Positions 3,820 to 30,439 of a DNA stretch of 30,958 bases are shown here, piece by piece. Each line of letters opens with the position of its first letter. The stretch's first letter is position 1. This DNA is from a virus. The DNA lies in IMG/VR virus record IMGVR_UViG_3300025098_000186, positions 1 through 30,958 of that record, one strand, 5' to 3'. The notes under the pieces were generated by a model. The model saw nothing but the letters and a program-made list of their open reading frames with translations, was not told where the DNA came from and searched no databases. A program made the translations under genes and the position numbers.

Positions 3820-4995
3820 TTATAACTCCGCATCAAAATGAGCGCTTGTACCAGGGCTTGTAATTCTAGCGTATGCACCTGCATTGTTAGTAGTTGATGT
3901 ACTACTGCCAAACTGCATAAAGTATGTGTCTGGGGTAGTTGTAACATAAGGTGTTGCACTAGCAGCCGCAGCAACGGCAACGTGTGTATACCCGAAGTCA
4001 GATACTGTACCCGAAACACTAAAGGTTGGAGAAACTCGCATTGTTTTTATTAACTTGCCGTACCCAAAAAAACTTGTACCTGAAGTAAAACCTGCGGCTA
4101 ATGTGTAATTTGTTCCAGAGCCACCAAGAACTTGGAAATACCGCTGGCACAACGCCAGTTCTTCCCCGTAGGATCGGGCGTGTTCAAAAGGCGTGGCGAC
4201 TTTGCCTACTTCTAGTTGGACGCCTGTGATTTCAAAGTAGTTATTAACCGTGTCTAGTAGCCTAACCTGACCCTCCACTGCCCTCGCAGCACCTGCGACA
4301 GCCCAGTTGTACGGAGAAACTATGTCATCTGGCCCAGAGTCTAAGTTGAAATCTATAAAAAAACCAGTAGTGTCAGTATAGTTTATGGAGCGTTTAGTGT
4401 TGGGTTCAATTACTACGCTTTTATATTCCCATGTGTCTGGGTTAGTGATAGTGTAGGAAGTTAAATAGGAAGCATTACCTGCGGTGTTCAATGCATAAGG
4501 TTGAAGGCTATAAGTTCCTGCCTTGTTAGACTTTACCCAAAAAGATAGTGTAATGTATTCCGCATTAGAAGTTCCGTATTTTAAGTGTCTCACGTCACTA
4601 CCTTCAATACTATATCTCAAGCTGTAGTTTTCACCAGATACTGTTGTTTGTGCTGAGGTAGTAAGTAGCTTTAATGAATGCGAAAACCCAAAGGGTGCAT
4701 CTGCGATAAGCTCTTGTGACATCGTAACATTGTAATTCATACCGCTGTTGGCAATAGTATGCCATCTGTCTACCGTGTGATAACCGTAGCCTGTGATGTT
4801 AGCACTCGTTCCCCGCTGTGCAATCCGCATATCACCATTGATAATCAGGTTCCTACGCCCTGCACCAATCAGGTTAAACTGTTCCTGTGGTGTCTCCGCA
4901 CGAAGCATAGCCTCTCCAGCTATACCTGTGGGTTTCTTTAGATCAGCCAGTTCCTCCCGAAGGTTTACGGCTGGTTTTGATACTTTAACTGTCAT
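3820..4995 (-). CDS. second receptor-binding/tail-fibre-type protein, 391 aa
   Basis: A 391-residue protein with a short helical N-terminus (NLREELADLKKPTGIAGEAM) that may attach to the virion. It is followed by RRNLIINGDMRIAQRGTS and HTVDRW, a signature of many phage and prophage tail-fibre or carbohydrate-binding proteins. A jelly-roll-like beta domain follows (about residues 65-285), with ITLSFWVKSNKAGTYS and ITGVQLEVGKVATPFEH, a typical CBM_4_9-like end. The C-terminal 100 residues are Ser/Thr/Gly/Ala-rich beta sequence, possibly the receptor-contacting tip. It is encoded 3 bases after the main fibre stop. Role in host adsorption is inferred. Confidence 0.75.
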   Translation of the reverse strand: MTVKVSKPAVNLREELADLKKPTGIAGEAMLRAETPQEQFNLIGAGRRNLIINGDMRIAQRGTSANITGYGYHTVDRWHTIANSGMNYNVTMSQELIADAPFGFSHSLKLLTTSAQTTVSGENYSLRYSIEGSDVRHLKYGTSNAEYITLSFWVKSNKAGTYSLQPYALNTAGNASYLTSYTITNPDTWEYKSVVIEPNTKRSINYTDTTGFFIDFNLDSGPDDIVSPYNWAVAGAARAVEGQVRLLDTVNNYFEITGVQLEVGKVATPFEHARSYGEELALCQRYFQVLGGSGTNYTLAAGFTSGTSFFGYGKLIKTMRVSPTFSVSGTVSDFGYTHVAVAAAASATPYVTTTPDTYFMQFGSSTSTTNNAGAYARITSPGTSAHFDAEL

Positions 4996-4998
4996 CTA

Positions 4999-7900
4999 TC
5001 AATCCTCTGCTACTAGGCCATTAGAGGCACTGATTGCTGCACCGACTGCATCGGTTGTGTTGTCTACTCGTCGTAATCCTTGGAAGACTGAACGTCCTGC
5101 GCTTGTACCGACATGAAGCAACTCTGTGCTATCGTCGTAGGCCAAAGCTGTTACCGCATCAGACGAGCCGTATAGCGTTGCTTGGGCATTCTCTTGGAAT
5201 AGCACCTTCTCGTCGTTGTAGATTTTAGCGATCTGTTCTGGGGATGGGGCTGTGGCTGAGATGCGGAGTAGGGCTATTGAGCCGCCAAAAGGTAAAGACA
5301 ACCCAGACCTTCTGTAATCACCAACTCTTAGTCTCGCATCTGTGCTTGAAATACTGTCTACAGATGAAGCATCCCCTGTATTTTTAAGGACGCCGTCCAC
5401 ATATAGTTCCAATGTGCTTCCTCGGCGCACCCATGTACCAAAATGCCAAGTATCATCATCTACGGCTGAACCTGAGTTGACATAAACACGATCAGTACCA
5501 TCATCCAAGGATATTTGAAGGTAACTATTTGTAGCGGCTATCTCAAAGCTAATAGCTTTGTCTGTCGTTGCACTATCTCTATCAAAAATTGTTCGTGTCA
5601 GAGCAGTTGCTTCATGTTTGAACCAAGCCATGCCACAGCAATCACCCGTCCCAAAGTCCAAGTCAGAGTTATAAGGCTGCTCAAGATAGTTACTGCTACT
5701 AAACCCACTATACGCCACCAAATCCGCACCAGTAGCCACAGGGGTTTTGGTCACAGTGCCGAACACTTGTAGACCGTTGCCGTTCACACTGCGGTCTTCT
5801 TCGGCTAGGCGTACTGAGACGTTGTCGAATAGAGCAGTATTTCCGTTTGTGTTGCTGTTAGGTTTTAGCGTTATGTATATAGTTGTTTGCGTAGGAATAA
5901 CGGTGAACGAATTTAACCCAGCCGCTGTTGAACTTCCATAATCTGCACCATTTGCAGCATTACCAATTCTAATATTTGGCCCAGATGTTCCTAGCAAACC
6001 TTCCACGCTAATCGTGTACGTTTTTCCTACTTCGACTGTAATAGCTTGGTGCGCCCGACCAGCACTCGCAATTCCGTTGGTAACTTTTAGTCTAGCGGAG
6101 TCTACGGATAAAATGCCCGAATTAGTAGCACTCCACCCAGTAGTATTACTAGCAAACGTACCATTCGTCACCAACTCACTGCCAGTAACGTCAGTATCAT
6201 CGGTGTCGGACAAGGTGGCTAGTTTGATGTCGCCGTTCATCCAGCCTGTGTTGTAGTCTGATTTAATGTAAGCGATCATCGCACTGCTGCTAATACCACT
6301 TACTGTCTCAGGTGCTTCCGCTATTATATCAAGTCCGTAGCTAGCATTGTCACCGCCCATTGCAAATTGGTCTTTTTGCATAGGTGCTATTGAGGGTTCA
6401 AACGTACCCCCCAGTGATATATTGGGGATACTACTATCAGAGTGATAATATCTTCCGTTTAGGGCAGTAAATCTAGCGTTTACTAGCTGTGCCGATACAT
6501 CTGCTGTAGGCATATCAACAACGTGTGTGATATTATTAGTAAGGTTAACATTACTTGCATCTATTATTAACTTGTTATCGGTTGTAATTTTTACAGAAGA
6601 CCAGCGGTTATAATTAGCAAACGTGTTTGTAATATCAACAACAGTCCCATCATCCTTAATAACACTCACGCCACCATTCGTCGCCACCGCAATAGTCGGC
6701 ACAGGCAATCCTGTAGCAGCATCAATCGGGGCGTTGGGCAGAACGGTCATGGCTACATCGTTGACTGCGGAATTAACAATAGTTCCATAGTTAGAAGAGT
6801 TTACATTGACAGTTGTGCTATTACGGCTTGCAATACCTTGTTGTTTTACCGTAACGCTGTTTGATGTTATCCAGTAACTTTCCTCTGCGAGAAAATCCAC
6901 TAACATTAGGCGAGCATAACTCCCTGTGTTTCCTAGTGCAATTTTACCGTTGATGGACGTAATAGAACTCACGCCTGTTAGTAGGAAGTTGTTTTCTCCG
7001 TTTATATTAAACACCATCCACATAGGCAAATCAGGATCATCACCATCGTAGATCGTAACCTGATTAGTCTCAGCCACAATAACAGCAACCGCAGGGAACT
7101 CCTTACGAGAGCCACGGGTGCTAGTGTTCAGTGTCTCATTGTACCAGCTTGTATTCTGTGTGCGCTTACGCCATGCACCGCCATCGCTGTCCTTGCGGGT
7201 GTCGTACACGAATACGTCTACGGCTGTGTCGCTGATGTCTTTGGCTATAGCTGTGAGGTCAAAACCAGCAAGCGCAGACGCAGTGTTGGTTGCAGAGGTG
7301 GCGGCGGCTTCAGCCGCTAGTTTGTAATCTTCAGCCGTGTCACGAGCAGCCTGAGAGGCAGTAGCAGAAGAGGCGGCATTAACCCCAGAAACAGATGCTT
7401 CACTTGCTTTAGTCGTTGCTATACCAGCCTGTGTTGTTGCAATTCCTGCTTGAGTTGTAGCCGTAGCAGCATTTGTTGAAGCGTTTTGAATGTCAGTAAT
7501 GTTTGTAGCGTTTGTGTTTACGGACGTAATATTAGTCGAAACCGTATTGACGTTAGATATATCACTAGCAACAGTTGTAATGTCAGCTTCATTTCCGGCA
7601 ACGTCATTAATGTTTCCTGCGTTTATAGCAACAGCAATAACATAGCCAATATCATCTGATACAGCAGTAATCGCACTAACATTATCAGCAAGAGAATCCA
7701 TATCAGCGATAACTGCCGCAGGGCTTAGTGCGTTCATATCAGATACAGCATCAGCTGTACCCAAGCGACCAATCTCTGTCGATACGCCGGAAACAGTAGT
7801 CACATCAGAAGATATACCTGCAACAACGCCAATGTCTGTACCGTCAGCAGCAACGGTGGTCACATCGGAAGATATACCCGAAACAGTAGTTATATCGCTA

Positions 7901-23433: not shown

Positions 23434-24018
23434 CTATCCAATCAATGACCGGCGGCGCCGCGTCTTCTTGTCTTCCTCGCCAGAACCAAGCAAACCGCTA
23501 GGTGTCGTAAGAATAGTTGATCGGCGCCCCTTCTTCATAAGGTCAATCGCCTCATCTTCAGCAGGGCCAACAGAGGTTGCACTTGCAGCAGCAGCCTGGG
23601 CAGCCCCGCCAGCAGCAGTGCCAACAGATGAAACAGGATCAGCCTCGCCAACAAAATCAGCGTCTTCGCTAAACGTGTCCTGACTAATCGTTTCAACTTC
23701 CGTCAAGGCAGTGTCAGTTTCGGTATCAAGCGTAGTGGTTGTGTCTGCGGCTGTGTCAGTTGCGGTGTCAGTTGCAGTAACCGCTGCCACAGGAACAGGA
23801 TCATCGTTGTCGCTCTTCATCATTTGTTCGACAGCGGCCATAGATCTTGCCTGCCGTTCAGCCAAATCACGATCATAAACATCGTTCTTCTCTTTAATGC
23901 CAATATCCATTAAAAGATCGTCAGTCGCACTGTTTTTAGGTGCGTTCATAGTGGAACCTCTAGGAGCACCTTCGTCGCGCGTTGTGTCTTTTGGCGTAAA
24001 GTCTAAACATCCACCCAT
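23434..24018 (-). CDS. acidic low-complexity protein, 194 aa, with conserved basic C-terminal motif
   Basis: The protein begins MGGCLDFTPKDTTRDEGAP. A charged helix follows (about residues 40-68), then a Thr/Asp/Ala-rich disordered stretch (about 75-145) and an Ala-rich segment. The C-terminus holds LMKKGRRSTILTTPSGLLGS and ends KTRRRRSLIG. The R-R-x-S-T-I-L-T-x-x-x-G-L-L-G motif recurs in podovirus proteins encoded near the portal; the function is not known to me. Its ATG overlaps the stop of the acetyltransferase gene (TAATG). The disordered body makes domain searches weak. Confidence 0.62.
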   Translation of the reverse strand: MGGCLDFTPKDTTRDEGAPRGSTMNAPKNSATDDLLMDIGIKEKNDVYDRDLAERQARSMAAVEQMMKSDNDDPVPVAAVTATDTATDTAADTTTTLDTETDTALTEVETISQDTFSEDADFVGEADPVSSVGTAAGGAAQAAAASATSVGPAEDEAIDLMKKGRRSTILTTPSGLLGSGEEDKKTRRRRSLIG

Positions 24019-24491
24019 TACAAAACCTTCCTATACTGAGAGCCAACCGGCTCATAACCAAACTTTTTAATCAGCTCATTCGATCTAGGCATCGAAATGC
24101 CAGAAGAAGTGCCGCCAACTAAAATCTTTGCCCCCTTATCAAACGCCCAAGACTCAAACATCTTTAACAACCTAACACCAATCATACCACCACGATGCTC
24201 AGGTGAGACATACCATAAATTGTTCTGAGCTGACAAGGTTTTTGAAAAATACAACTGATAGACCCAGCCAGACATAAATCCAACAACCTCGCCACCACGC
24301 TCCGCAACAGCAAGAAAACAAGACTCATCATCATAAAGCCAAGACAAATGACCAGCAAAAACAACATCGTCAAAAACAATGTTGTTAAATTGCGTCTCTT
24401 GATGAAAGTCACGGCACATCTTAAAAATCGCAGAAGCATCACTGCGATCCGCTAACCGATATAAACAAGGATCACGCCGCAAATGGATCAT
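24018..24491 (-). CDS. GNAT-family N-acetyltransferase, 157 aa
   Basis: A compact GNAT fold. An N-terminal helix region (SDASAIFKMCRDFHQE) leads to the central strands ESCFLAVAERGGEVVGFMSG. The acetyl-CoA-binding loop YVSPEHRGGMIGVRLLKMF (residues 94-112) contains the R/Q-x-x-G-x-G/A-type pyrophosphate motif, here R100-G-G-M-I-G105. The C-terminal strand region is NELIKKFGYEPVGSQYRKVL. It would transfer an acetyl group to an unknown substrate. The gene overlaps the 3' end of the large terminase by 20 bases and sits among head genes, so co-expression with late genes is certain but the role is not. GNAT genes at this place occur in other podoviruses. Confidence 0.82.
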   Translation of the reverse strand: MIHLRRDPCLYRLADRSDASAIFKMCRDFHQETQFNNIVFDDVVFAGHLSWLYDDESCFLAVAERGGEVVGFMSGWVYQLYFSKTLSAQNNLWYVSPEHRGGMIGVRLLKMFESWAFDKGAKILVGGTSSGISMPRSNELIKKFGYEPVGSQYRKVL

Positions 24492-26830: not shown

Positions 26831-27418
26831 TCAGAATGGAATGTCATCATCAAACACTTTCGGCTTTGCTCGGATGTCGATCACCTCTGCGGCTGGGAAT
26901 GATTCTTTGACTGCCTTCTCGAACTCTCCTGCGTTGTGGTCTCTGAAGTGTCTGTATGCCAGGGCCACCTCTCTGAGCGTTAGCAGCTCTAGGTCTGGCC
27001 GTTGCTCTTTGATCTTTTGCCACGACCTTCCGTCTTTCATAATGCCAAAGGTCTCGCCATCCAGTTCCATCTCCCAGATGTCTGTTGAGGCTCTCTGTGC
27101 GCCTAGTCTCTCTGCCTCTGCGTCCATTGCATTGAGGCCTCTTACGACCACCTCTGCTCTGACCTTACATTCTTCTGGATTGTTTTCTTCGATAGCCTTG
27201 TTCATCTTTGCCATTGCAGATCCATACTTCTGCGCTGTCTCGACGCTCACTAATTCTGGCAGCATGTCGATGCCCCACTTTGTGTCCATTTGTATTGCCA
27301 GCCGATCCATTGGTGCTATTGCGTAATCACACATGATTTGATCCTTATGAGCTTGCGGGTTGAATATTCTGTCTGCCTTCTTTTGGCGCCTTGGCCTCCG
27401 AGGCTTCTGCGTTGTCAT
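26831..27418 (-). CDS. replication-associated protein with an SSB-like C-terminal tail, 195 aa
   Basis: The frame is open from GTG 27430, but GGAG ends just before three ATG codons; ATG 27418, 6 bases after GGAG, is the best start (MTTQKPRRPRRQKK). The N-terminus is strongly basic. The body (about residues 30-170) is mixed alpha/beta with ETAQKYGSAMAKMNKAIEEN, ELDGETFGIMKDGRSWQ and LELLTLREVALAYRHF, and I recognise no family. It lacks an OB-fold pattern. The last residues are KVFDDDIPF, and FDDDIPF is identical to the end of E. coli SSB, the tail that binds many host replication and repair proteins. It follows the repeat-rich region and ends the replication operon, so a host-replisome adaptor or initiator role is inferred. 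Confidence 0.72.
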   Translation of the reverse strand: MTTQKPRRPRRQKKADRIFNPQAHKDQIMCDYAIAPMDRLAIQMDTKWGIDMLPELVSVETAQKYGSAMAKMNKAIEENNPEECKVRAEVVVRGLNAMDAEAERLGAQRASTDIWEMELDGETFGIMKDGRSWQKIKEQRPDLELLTLREVALAYRHFRDHNAGEFEKAVKESFPAAEVIDIRAKPKVFDDDIPF

Positions 27419-27426
27419 CATCATCT

Positions 27427-27570
27427 CCACAGTTAAATCACCACAGTTTCATATAATCCACATTCCACCACAGTAGTATGCATATACATACAACTACTGT
27501 GGTGGAAGTATTTGTGGCCTTTTCTTCCACAGTTCCACAGTTCATCCACAGTTCGGAAAAGCAACTGTGG
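27427..27570. repeat. CCACAGTT iteron-like array, candidate origin or operator region
   Basis: Exact CCACAGTT starts at 27427, 27441, 27527, 27535 and 27546, with the reverse form AACTGTGG at 27563. CCACAGT (27468) and ACTGTGG (27496) occur in the arms of an inverted repeat. TTCCACAG is a direct tandem at 27525-27540. TAATCCACA (27454-27462) and TCATCCACA (27542-27550) each match the DnaA box TTATCCACA at 8 of 9 positions. The array fills the gap between the primase-helicase gene and the SSB-tail gene. Replication initiation, or binding of a phage regulator, would explain it. Confidence 0.7.
27463..27507. repeat. perfect 15-bp inverted repeat within the iteron array
   Basis: TTCCACCACAGTAGT (27463-27477) and ACTACTGTGGTGGAA (27493-27507) are exact reverse complements around a 15-base AT-rich spacer, ATGCATATACATACA. 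No U-tract follows in either direction, so it is not a standard terminator. A cruciform or a dimeric protein site with an AT-rich unwinding spacer is more likely. Confidence 0.85.
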
Positions 27571-27586
27571 AACTGTTGGGAAAGCA

Positions 27587-29776
27587 TCAGACTTCCTCCC
27601 AATTGATCCACTCACCGACCACCACGCACGGCACATCTCTTCCGCTTCGTGTGTCTCTTATCTCTGCGACTTTGAGGTTGCCTGTGCTGATCCACTTCTT
27701 TGCGATTGCCTTGGCCTTTGCTTTGTCCCCTGGCTTGTCTGTATCGAGGTCGAGCTGTTCTGCGACTGCATTGCCGATCCAGCTCTTTGCTCTGATGTCT
27801 GATCGGTATGCCTTGCCTTCTTCCTCTGCCTTTCCGACTGCTCTTTGCACATCGTACAGGTCTTTGGCTGTCACGCCGTCGAACAGGTCAGGCAGCTTGA
27901 ACTCTGTTGCTACGCCTATGTGTTCACCGTTTGCGATCTCGACTGAGATCATCTTGCGGTATGTTGCCTTGTCTGACGGTGGTGCGAGGTTTGCTTTGCC
28001 ATCGTCTTGGCGGAATATCCCGAGGGCTTCCTGTTCGTCCACACCGAGGGCCATTGCGTCTTCTGGCGATATTCTGTTGATTACTCTTGCTGCTCTTGCT
28101 GCACCGATCAGACTGCCTGCCCCTCGCACTGAATCCACTGTTGCGTCTTCTCCGTTGCCTTTTCGGATATGATGCACAAGCTGGACTGAGCTGTTGGTAT
28201 CTCTTGCCAGCTTCCTGAGCATTGATACGACTGCCTGTATGCTTCCATTATTATTCTCATTGACCAGGTGGGCAGATATGAATGGATCTAGGATCACGAC
28301 TTTTATGTTGTTGTCTTTGATCTTTCGGATCATGAATGCCAGCAGCTCATCGTTCTGGATCAGGCCGTCCCTGCCTTCTGCTGCCAGTGTGATCTGCATG
28401 GTGTCCTCGCCATCCATAAACAGCTTGCCTTTGATGTCATCTGGCTTGAGGCCATAGTGCTGCATTGCTGCTATGGTTCTCATTTGAAGTTCCGAGATCG
28501 GATCTTCCAAATTTATGACCCATGTGTTGCACTGTTCCTTGACCCTTACGCCAAGCAGGTCTTTGCCTGTCGATATTGCCAGTGCTTCCACAATGATTGC
28601 TGATGTCTTGCCTATACCGCCGGCCGATGCTGTTACGCTGATATACTTCTTGATGTAGTCGTATCCATACACCCACTCTCTGCGCGGCAGTGTGAGAGCA
28701 TCAAACATTTCGTAGGGCGTGGGCCAATCATTGCCTGTATCGGCCTCTGTGTGGCTCTGTGTTGGCTCTGTGGCTATCTGCAATGTCTGGTTTTGCTGCT
28801 CCATGCGCTCGGCTGCTGGATCTGGCGGTGGCGTCCAGCCTTTTGCTCTGGCGCCGTCGATTGCCTTCTGCACCTCTGCCCTTGTTTCTTCTACTGAGTA
28901 GCCGCCAAGGGTAAAGCCATCTGTGATTGCGTGGATCTCTTCGTCTGCTAGGCCTTTGTTGACGTATGATCCAACCAGGCGCACCATATTGTGATGCCAA
29001 TCCTCTCCTGCTAGCACGTTTTGGACTGCCATCTGCCTGTCCATTGCTTGCTGGCCGAGGTCTATGTTGATTGTGCTAGCAGCCTGTGGCTCTGCCCTTG
29101 GGAAGGCGCGCATCATGCGCTCAAACTCTACTGGCTCTCTGTCTGTACTAAATTCTGTACGCATTGTGACCAGCTCTGGGACGTATCCTTTGTCTTGTTT
29201 CTTTTGGTTGGGCCATGAGACTGTGCCTGCCACGCGCATGATGCGTGATGGGTTGATGACTGCTGCATCTGTTTGGAGCGAGGCGGCGATTGCTTTTTGT
29301 ACGTCACGCCATGCCTGCATGTTTTGCACTGGCTCTTCTAGCTGCCAGTATGCGTGGCCTCTTGCGAATGGCGTTGTTCCTGTCTTGATAGACATTGTGA
29401 ACTTTGGGCCGGCGAAAGATAGGATGTTTTCCATTGCGCCGGCAGTGTCTGCGTCTGCAAAGCAGTAGAACGCGGCTAGGATGTCTGTGTCTTTGGCTGC
29501 TTGGCCTGCTGGTATATCCACGATTGGATCAATTGGATTGATGCACATATAGATATTTTGCTTGGCGGCGTTCATTGCCTCGGCGTGCTGGGCTGCGTCT
29601 TCTATGTTTTTTAGTGCAAATCTTGCGGCGTTTGCTGATCCAGATTGCGATATAGAACGTATCTCTATGAGCGGTTGGCCCACAGTGTTCCAATTTTCTG
29701 TGATCTGTGCTATGAACTGCTTAATGATTTCGGTTTTGGGAGCCATTTCCATTTGTTCTTCCACTTCCATTTTCAT
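27587..29776 (-). CDS. primase-polymerase/helicase fusion, 729 aa
   Basis: The N-terminal part (about residues 95-200) has the pattern of archaeo-eukaryotic-type primases such as RepB. It has FADADTAG (acidic D108, D110), GHAYWQL (140-146) and SRIMRVAGTVSWPNQKK (177-193). A PriCT-like helical linker follows (about 255-310). Residues 350-570 are a RecA/RepA-type ATPase, with Walker A AGGIGKTS (385-392), Walker B VVILD (493-497), then LVHHIRKG (533-540) and RGAGSLIGAARAAR (551-564). The C-terminus is a charged helical tail. It should unwind DNA and make primers, perhaps also extend them. The SD GGGGAGGA stands 5 bases before ATG 29776, just after a hairpin. Confidence 0.82.
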   Translation of the reverse strand: MKMEVEEQMEMAPKTEIIKQFIAQITENWNTVGQPLIEIRSISQSGSANAARFALKNIEDAAQHAEAMNAAKQNIYMCINPIDPIVDIPAGQAAKDTDILAAFYCFADADTAGAMENILSFAGPKFTMSIKTGTTPFARGHAYWQLEEPVQNMQAWRDVQKAIAASLQTDAAVINPSRIMRVAGTVSWPNQKKQDKGYVPELVTMRTEFSTDREPVEFERMMRAFPRAEPQAASTINIDLGQQAMDRQMAVQNVLAGEDWHHNMVRLVGSYVNKGLADEEIHAITDGFTLGGYSVEETRAEVQKAIDGARAKGWTPPPDPAAERMEQQNQTLQIATEPTQSHTEADTGNDWPTPYEMFDALTLPRREWVYGYDYIKKYISVTASAGGIGKTSAIIVEALAISTGKDLLGVRVKEQCNTWVINLEDPISELQMRTIAAMQHYGLKPDDIKGKLFMDGEDTMQITLAAEGRDGLIQNDELLAFMIRKIKDNNIKVVILDPFISAHLVNENNNGSIQAVVSMLRKLARDTNSSVQLVHHIRKGNGEDATVDSVRGAGSLIGAARAARVINRISPEDAMALGVDEQEALGIFRQDDGKANLAPPSDKATYRKMISVEIANGEHIGVATEFKLPDLFDGVTAKDLYDVQRAVGKAEEEGKAYRSDIRAKSWIGNAVAEQLDLDTDKPGDKAKAKAIAKKWISTGNLKVAEIRDTRSGRDVPCVVVGEWINWEEV

Positions 29777-29827: not shown

Positions 29828-30439
29828 TTAAAACTCTGCGTCAGCTGGGGCTGGTGCAGGAGCTGGGGCCGGTGCGGGTGCAGCTTCTTCGACTGCTATC
29901 CCTGCGGCGACACCTTCTTTCAGGCAGTCAGGCTTGTCTACCCACTTTACGATCTCAAAGATCGGGTAGCATGTGGAGCCTTTGGTGAACTTGATTTCCT
30001 TGGCCTCAACCATTTTGATGAGTGGCATTTGGCCGTTTGTGCCTTGGCTTAGTTTTGGAGCGAGATCTGTTAACGCGGCCCACACGCCGGCGCCTGCCTG
30101 CTCCCACATGGCGACCTTGCCGCCACCGATAGCACACTTGACCGAAAAGCCTTTCTTGTAATCATCACCGGGCTTGCCCATCATTTGATTAACTGTTGGG
30201 TTCCATTTCCACTCGGGAGCTACGCCAACCATGCCGTCTGACTTCTGCCATCCTGTCTTTAGGCTGTCCAAGTCAATGACAAAGCCGTTAGTCTGCGCAG
30301 CCTCAAACTCATCCTTTGCCGCACCGTCACGGGTATAGAACTGCTTGGCGCGGACGGAGCCGTCCTGTGTGCCGCGTGCTGACCATTGCAGGAATGTGTT
30401 AACGTCAGAGCCTGATGCCCCTAGATCTATTTCAAACAT
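29828..30439 (-). CDS. putative phage ssDNA-binding protein, 203 aa
   Basis: A 203-residue acidic protein. The core (about residues 10-175) has FLQWSARGTQDGSVRAKQFY, SLKTGWQKSDGMVGVAPEWK and GDDYKKGFSVKCAIGGGKVA. YPIFEIVKWVDKPDCLKEG follows, a pattern I associate with single-stranded-DNA-binding-type proteins of alphaproteobacterial and marine phages. It then has a Pro-Ala linker (185-199) and ends ADAEF, an acidic-aromatic tip like those used by T7 gp2.5 and SSB to contact replication partners. It lies between a nuclease and the primase-helicase, which supports a replication role. The OB fold itself cannot be proven by eye. SD AAAGGA precedes ATG 30439. Confidence 0.65.
   Translation of the reverse strand: MFEIDLGASGSDVNTFLQWSARGTQDGSVRAKQFYTRDGAAKDEFEAAQTNGFVIDLDSLKTGWQKSDGMVGVAPEWKWNPTVNQMMGKPGDDYKKGFSVKCAIGGGKVAMWEQAGAGVWAALTDLAPKLSQGTNGQMPLIKMVEAKEIKFTKGSTCYPIFEIVKWVDKPDCLKEGVAAGIAVEEAAPAPAPAPAPAPADAEF

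Follow-up and report, generated by a model that had tools for sequence, protein, structure and literature searches.

A candidate iteron origin and its predicted winged-helix reader in the primase-helicase of alphaproteobacterial-type phages

Genes and repeats at the locus

At 30,958 bases, the window (the whole stretch of DNA analysed here) is an IMG/VR virus contig that has no terminal repeats and may be incomplete; judged from the hosts and sources of its nearest annotated relatives, the phage appears to be of the alphaproteobacterial type. The genes for a 729-aa primase-helicase (27587..29776, minus strand) and a 199-aa protein (26831..27430, minus strand, with a GTG start at 27430) are followed by the terminase genes, and all are read leftward, so that the repeat array found in the 156-bp gap between the first two lies downstream of the primase-helicase gene and just upstream of the 199-aa gene. 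A gene for a GNAT-family acetyltransferase (24018-24491) sits between the terminase large-subunit and connector genes.

The primase-helicase matches AAA_25 (E 1e-30), the primase and helicase families of PHROG and, in profile comparison, RepA of RSF1010 (PDB 1g8y, E 4e-18). Its helicase domain (28154..28705, minus strand, residues 358-541) is, to judge from these matches, homologous to RepA, and PDB and Pfam searches with the full-length protein matched no SaPI-type or MCM-type helicase. The AEP/RepB-like primase signal at the N-terminus is weak, with RepB_primase (PF16793) reached by one of 19 members (E 8e-4). The C-terminal domain (27590..27871, minus strand, residues 636-729), which we propose as the reader of the repeats, is a predicted winged helix. 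Its AF2 model (pLDDT about 90) comprises the elements H38-53, H68-75, H83-98, E102-108 and E115-121, which is the helix-helix-helix-strand-wing-strand layout, and its closest structural neighbours are winged helices (RecQ, MarR, MCM and others, with Z up to 8.0). Foldseek by itself returned no hit to the domain with E below 0.001; the prediction is based on this element order, on the confidence of the model and on the many winged helices that match it at Z near 8.

The product of the 199-aa gene, which would be 195-197 aa long if started at internal ATGs, found no match in Pfam and PHROG searches. Its C-terminus (26831-26860, minus strand) reads KVFDDDIPF and resembles the tip of bacterial SSB, which recruits replication and repair proteins; as a lead only, such a tail would suit the recruitment of host replication proteins. 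Homologues in relatives end in FDDPIPF/W, and those of the CRP roseophages have no such tail. A 203-aa protein (29828..30439, minus strand), likewise without a family match in Pfam and PHROG, is a probable ssDNA-binding protein; the name is taken from Roseobacter phage CRP-811, in which the gene at the corresponding position carries that annotation.

The initial annotation had described six octamers and two heptamers between the primase-helicase gene and the gene with the SSB-like tail, at a density far beyond chance, and all of this was borne out. When both strands are counted, the record contains six copies of the octamer CCACAGTT, all of them exact and all inside the gap: five copies lie on the plus strand (27427..27434, 27441..27448, 27527..27534, the abutting 27535..27542, and 27546..27553) and one is inverted (27563..27570, minus strand). 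With the first of them, the array reaches into the GTG start and ribosome-binding region of the 199-aa gene. Shuffled versions of the record contain the octamer 1.04 times on average and four times at most per 30,958 bases, so about 0.005 copies are expected per 160 bp. The commonest 8-mer reaches six copies at the array and no more than three in any of 605 other 250-bp segments taken from the record. Because the record has no terminal repeats, further copies may exist in any missing part; related records of 33.6-35.1 kb with the same word, themselves possibly incomplete, have no more than one copy elsewhere.

The two CCACAGT heptamers, at 27468 (plus) and 27496 (minus), both lie in the arms of a palindrome (27463..27507) that consists of two head-to-head half-iterons (TTCCACCACAGTAGT / ACTACTGTGGTGGAA). 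Its 15-bp arms (27463-27477 and 27493-27507) are perfect and enclose an AT-rich centre (27478-27492), which makes it a candidate unwinding or hairpin element. A second inverted repeat (27529..27576) has perfect 14-bp arms at 27529-27542 and 27563-27576, and as a single strand the gap folds far below its shuffles (z = -8.7). No terminator or terminator-like tract was found in the gap, and a known RNA element was ruled out as its identity, since an Rfam search returned sub-threshold matches at chance level and no family. The switch in GC skew expected at 27.5 kb was not seen: the skew is monotonic, without a switch in the window, in six related records or in CRP-811, and is uninformative on the origin, counting neither way.

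The initial annotation also proposed an origin that uses both a phage protein and host DnaA, and pointed to near-matches to the DnaA box. Three sites in the gap, including the degenerate site TAATCCACA (27454..27462, plus strand), are indeed one mismatch from such a box (TTWTNCACA), but none is exact, and exact boxes are found in the gaps of very few relatives. Such near-boxes arise because CCACA is part of the repeat. Most gaps of relatives with CCTCACC repeats contain one or no site within one mismatch of the box, and no CCACA site takes the place of TAATCCACA there. Host DnaA as a partner was therefore rejected, the exact boxes being absent from the gap and the near-boxes mostly lost in the CCTCACC relatives; an origin remains the best supported part of the proposal.

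Repeat words and protein segments among relatives

Scans of IMG/VR yielded about 100 loci with a primase-helicase of 100% to 57% identity and a further group near 48%. At nearly every region-intact locus among the about 100 read, an array is present in the gap and broadly follows one plan: paired repeats near the stop codon of the primase-helicase gene, a palindrome with an AT-rich centre and, ahead of the following start codon, a further repeat or two. The palindrome has class-specific arms in the relatives, and its short AT-rich centre, judged by eye, is retained. The array is weak in L184 and L118, and none was found directly downstream in L112 (Rhizobium phage RHph_X2_26) or L121 (Parasedimentitalea).

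The repeat word switches in all copies of an array together, between CCACAGTT, CCACACTT, CCACACCTT (as in L059), CCTCACCTT (as in L061) and CCCCACCTT. Absence of the octamer array from relatives that keep both flanking genes had been named as grounds for dismissing the array. Because the word changes between relatives, the literal octamer is indeed missing from many such genomes, but taken at face value this is misleading, as the array is still there with another word.

These changes bear on the view that single-strand hairpins, either primase sites like the ssi sites of RSF1010 or mRNA structures, do the work and that the repeats are merely their arms. The inverted repeats are perfect and fold strongly, as described above, and a stem-loop downstream of the replication gene is in use in pRN1 (PMC4234260). 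However, direct repeats outside the hairpins switch as well, which base pairing alone does not demand, and neither a terminator-like tract nor an Rfam family is present. Hairpins as the sole active element thus appear highly improbable; they may act jointly with the iterons.

We compared maximum-likelihood trees of the enzyme core, the 199-aa protein and the C-terminal domain for the same 42 genomes, with repeat classes assigned by our own count of the words and with CCACAGTT and CCACACTT merged, as they are one base apart and mixed in some genomes. On the domain tree, which derives from a short alignment of 94 residues, the repeat class needs to change three times, the minimum possible, as opposed to nine times on both the core tree and the tree of the 199-aa protein; shuffled class labels need about 20 changes. 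With the same rows, the tree of the upstream SSB-like protein requires 11 changes versus two for the domain. Mean domain identity is 92% in same-word pairs (cores above 90%) versus 54% in different-word pairs, and genomes with different words can have almost the same core: the core and domain identities are 95.8% and 49% in L059/L064, 96.8% and 44% in L104/L105, 95.1% and 43% in L071/L107, and 94.6% and 63% in L067/L070. Word-discriminating residues cluster at positions 641-725 of the 729-aa primase-helicase; those of the 199-aa protein mostly split the near-identical clade of the window from all others. Among the protein segments tested, the C-terminal ~95 residues of the primase-helicase alone track the word, as far as sequence comparison can tell. 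The 195/199-residue protein, which the initial annotation had put forward as the binder, was rejected as the reader, given the nine class changes on its tree against three and a structural model for which comparison found no match to a DNA-binding fold.

The correspondence is not exact to the base. In the trio L057/L058/L086 the domains are nearly the same, yet the arrays consist of CCACAGTT, of CCACACTT and of a mixture; in L168/L182, near-identical domains accompany a CCACAGTT-dominated and a CCACACTT-dominated array. The words in these genomes are one or two bases apart despite the near-identity of the domains, so single-base differences are either tolerated or lagging. No simple residue-to-base code could be derived: residue 711 is Q in every CCTCACC-class domain inspected, the distant L089 and L185 among them, but K in both the CCACACC and the CCCCACC class.

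Linkage, pairing and alternative roles of the array

Since the domain and the array are adjacent in most genomes, linkage could yield part of the correlation. The array, whether an origin or a regulatory site, might then be read by a host protein, host DnaA or another phage protein, with the domain hitch-hiking by adjacency. Apart from the adjacency itself, this view draws on the smaller contrast obtained with the terminase small subunit (eight class changes on its tree versus four for the domain).

An extra gene that separates the two argues otherwise. This gene, PAPS-reductase-like by its resemblance to a family annotated in CRP phages, sits between the primase-helicase gene and the array in L065, L080, L105, L059, L074, L101, L034 and L012; in CRP-821 and CRP-831 a gene of the PAPS-reductase family follows the 199-aa gene instead. 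Between L065 and L080, DNA identity is 83.8% at the end of the core and falls to 57.9% across the domain; it rises to 93.3% within the extra gene (99% as protein), falls again to 54.3% over the array and returns to 82.6% for the 199-aa gene. Across L065, L080 and L105 the extra gene is 92-93% identical in DNA, yet the domain and the array on its two flanks differ. The gene looks like mobile cargo, and its position between domain and array could reflect a later insertion.

The second argument comes from the array scaffold. L077, L100 and L104 have a longer scaffold, with a gap of 416-446 bp and extra hairpins (GAATTTCCTACGGAAATTA, AAAAAAACCGCCTC...GGGCGG); a hairpin similar to that of the longer scaffold, TGAATTTCCTCCGGAAATTTAC, occurs in L285 of the sister group described below. 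Between L104 and L077/L100 the spacers are 64% identical and the repeats 42-43%, the word following the domain and not the scaffold. L070, a genome with the short scaffold, has a core 98.8% identical to the core of L104. The 199-aa gene, finally, is as near to the array on the other side, yet does not track the word. Taken together, the extra gene, the shared scaffold and the non-tracking 199-aa gene speak against adjacency alone, at least as judged from these comparisons. In addition, a host factor is not expected to switch with the phage lineage, and we regard a reader other than the domain as quite improbable.

Related C-terminal domains followed by an array are also encoded by plasmid elements of Rhodoplanes, Microvirga and Methylobacterium, the Rhodoplanes array consisting of eight copies of GCGTCACC. 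Among the alphaproteobacterial plasmid elements L116-L119, domain and array are clear in L116, L117 and L119 and weak in L118, and no homologue of the 199-aa protein was detected in the genes that follow the array. In the Microvirga and Methylobacterium elements the primase is a separate Toprim protein. The Rhodoplanes element (L116) has a NusG-family antitermination gene (4566-5114) after its array; it also carries a terminase gene and so may be a phage-plasmid. Elements of Caenibius and Novosphingobium have words of their own. Two isolated roseophages, CRP-811 and CRP-831, retain the 199-aa homologue and have an unrelated helicase C-terminus, and their words, ACTACAAA (ten copies) and TGTATAAA (seven copies) respectively, are unrelated; in CRP-811 (PV211010; host Roseobacter sp. 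FZCC0198) the array is found near 4.4 kb. PMC12629253, as covered here within an incomplete survey of the literature, yielded no described origin for the CRP roseophages. In the sister group near 48% identity (L269-L314), the primase-helicase has another C-terminal sequence (MTTRVVNNMLDLIDKGPEDGEKYS...), and one small gene separates it from repeats similar to GTGCGCCA or AGTGCGTC, which are at least a few hundred bases downstream.

These elements also bear on an operator, the alternative already raised by the initial annotation, in which the C-terminal domain on the array would control the 199-aa gene and the packaging genes that follow while replication starts elsewhere. Two repeats stand just before the start codon of the 199-aa gene and overlap its ribosome-binding region, and where the extra gene is inserted the array remains beside the 199-aa gene, away from the primase-helicase gene. 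On the other hand, no sigma-70-like promoter was found in the gap, the plasmid elements keep the array downstream of the helicase gene with no 199-aa homologue after it, the proposed reader is itself a helicase-primase, and iterons together with an AT-centred palindrome are a typical feature of origins. We consider an operator in place of an origin unlikely; an additional operator role is possible, given the overlap of the repeat at 27427-27434 with the ribosome-binding region of the 199-aa gene.

The reading that we favour, with a probability of a little over three in four, is that the gap is an iteron origin read by the C-terminal winged helix of the primase-helicase and that domain and array form a matched, repeatedly switched pair. 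The sequences themselves show the array and its palindromes, the concerted change of the word, and the tracking of the word by this domain but by neither the core nor three neighbouring proteins; replication from the array, binding of the repeats by the domain, helicase loading and priming we infer. The winged helix would bind the 8-9-bp repeats of the adjoining array and, by occupying copies in both orientations, would load the RepA-like hexameric helicase. The palindrome would open at its AT-rich centre, and the N-terminal primase would prime synthesis, presumably for the host polymerase. Domain and array would have changed many times over, by exchange or by re-specification, and mostly without regard to the genes on either side.

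Known systems and implications

Precedents from SaPI Rep, P4 alpha, RSF1010, pRN1 and PLE make this a kind of system that is already known. In P4, the alpha protein has an SF3 helicase and binds iterons through its C-terminal part; the oriV iterons of RSF1010 are longer than the 8-9-bp repeats found here. In SaPI Rep and SCCmec Cch2, a C-terminal domain reads iterons directly downstream of its own helicase gene (PMC7581432). The window resembles them in having a helicase C-terminal domain and short iterons directly downstream, but those proteins are DUF927/MCM-like or D5-like helicases of staphylococcal islands, whereas here a RepA/RecA-like (AAA_25) helicase is joined to an N-terminal primase in alphaproteobacterial-type phages and plasmid-like elements. 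P4 alpha likewise combines a primase and the initiating helicase in one polypeptide (PMC7145576), its primase being of the bacterial Toprim type (PMC4234260); our analysis found no sequence relation between it and the window protein. The proposed initiator of the window is best read as working like SaPI Rep or P4 alpha and is not filed as a member of the SaPI Rep family.

RSF1010 has a homologous helicase and a set of helicase, primase, iteron binder and hairpins that is the same in kind, but distributes the proteins over separate RepA, RepB' and RepC (PMC4234260), whereas the window has one fused protein and 8-9-bp repeats. ORF904 of pRN1 combines an AEP-type primase, a helicase and a C-terminal winged helix, with the origin directly downstream of the gene (PMC4234260); it differs in its SF3 helicase and in a stem-loop origin without iterons. 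In the PLE satellites of Vibrio cholerae, origin repeats and the DNA-binding domain of the initiator covary and have been swapped, for which an origin-directed phage nuclease is a proposed driver (PMC8263062); PLE RepA is a RepA_N protein with no predicted helicase or primase activity (PMC7145576). At least two swaps are known among five PLE variants, compared with at least nine changes of repeat class, involving several words, on our core tree of 42 genomes. What seems to be new is the union of a RepA-type helicase, a primase and a C-terminal winged-helix reader in one protein, together with the frequency of switching.

We tentatively suggest, as a possibility that we hold to be somewhat less than even, that selection keeps changing the origin word, the cassette of domain and array being switched against origin-directed attack, decoys or co-infecting relatives. 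Among the loci examined, no free-standing C-terminal domain, such as one fused to a nuclease in an origin-directed attacker, was found outside the primase-helicase. If selection of this kind is at work, origin specificity would switch frequently in free-living phages, and the switches would provide a natural series of protein-DNA recognition.

The analysis names a probable origin and its reader in a group of phages that is represented mostly by metagenomic sequences. It also offers a rule for related phages and plasmids, which is to inspect the DNA just downstream of the RepA-type helicase gene and take the repeat word from there. Domain/array pairs occur naturally by the dozen, several of them with nearly identical cores, and are material for studying how winged-helix residues choose bases, and the same pairs may serve in asking why phages change their origin specificity so often.
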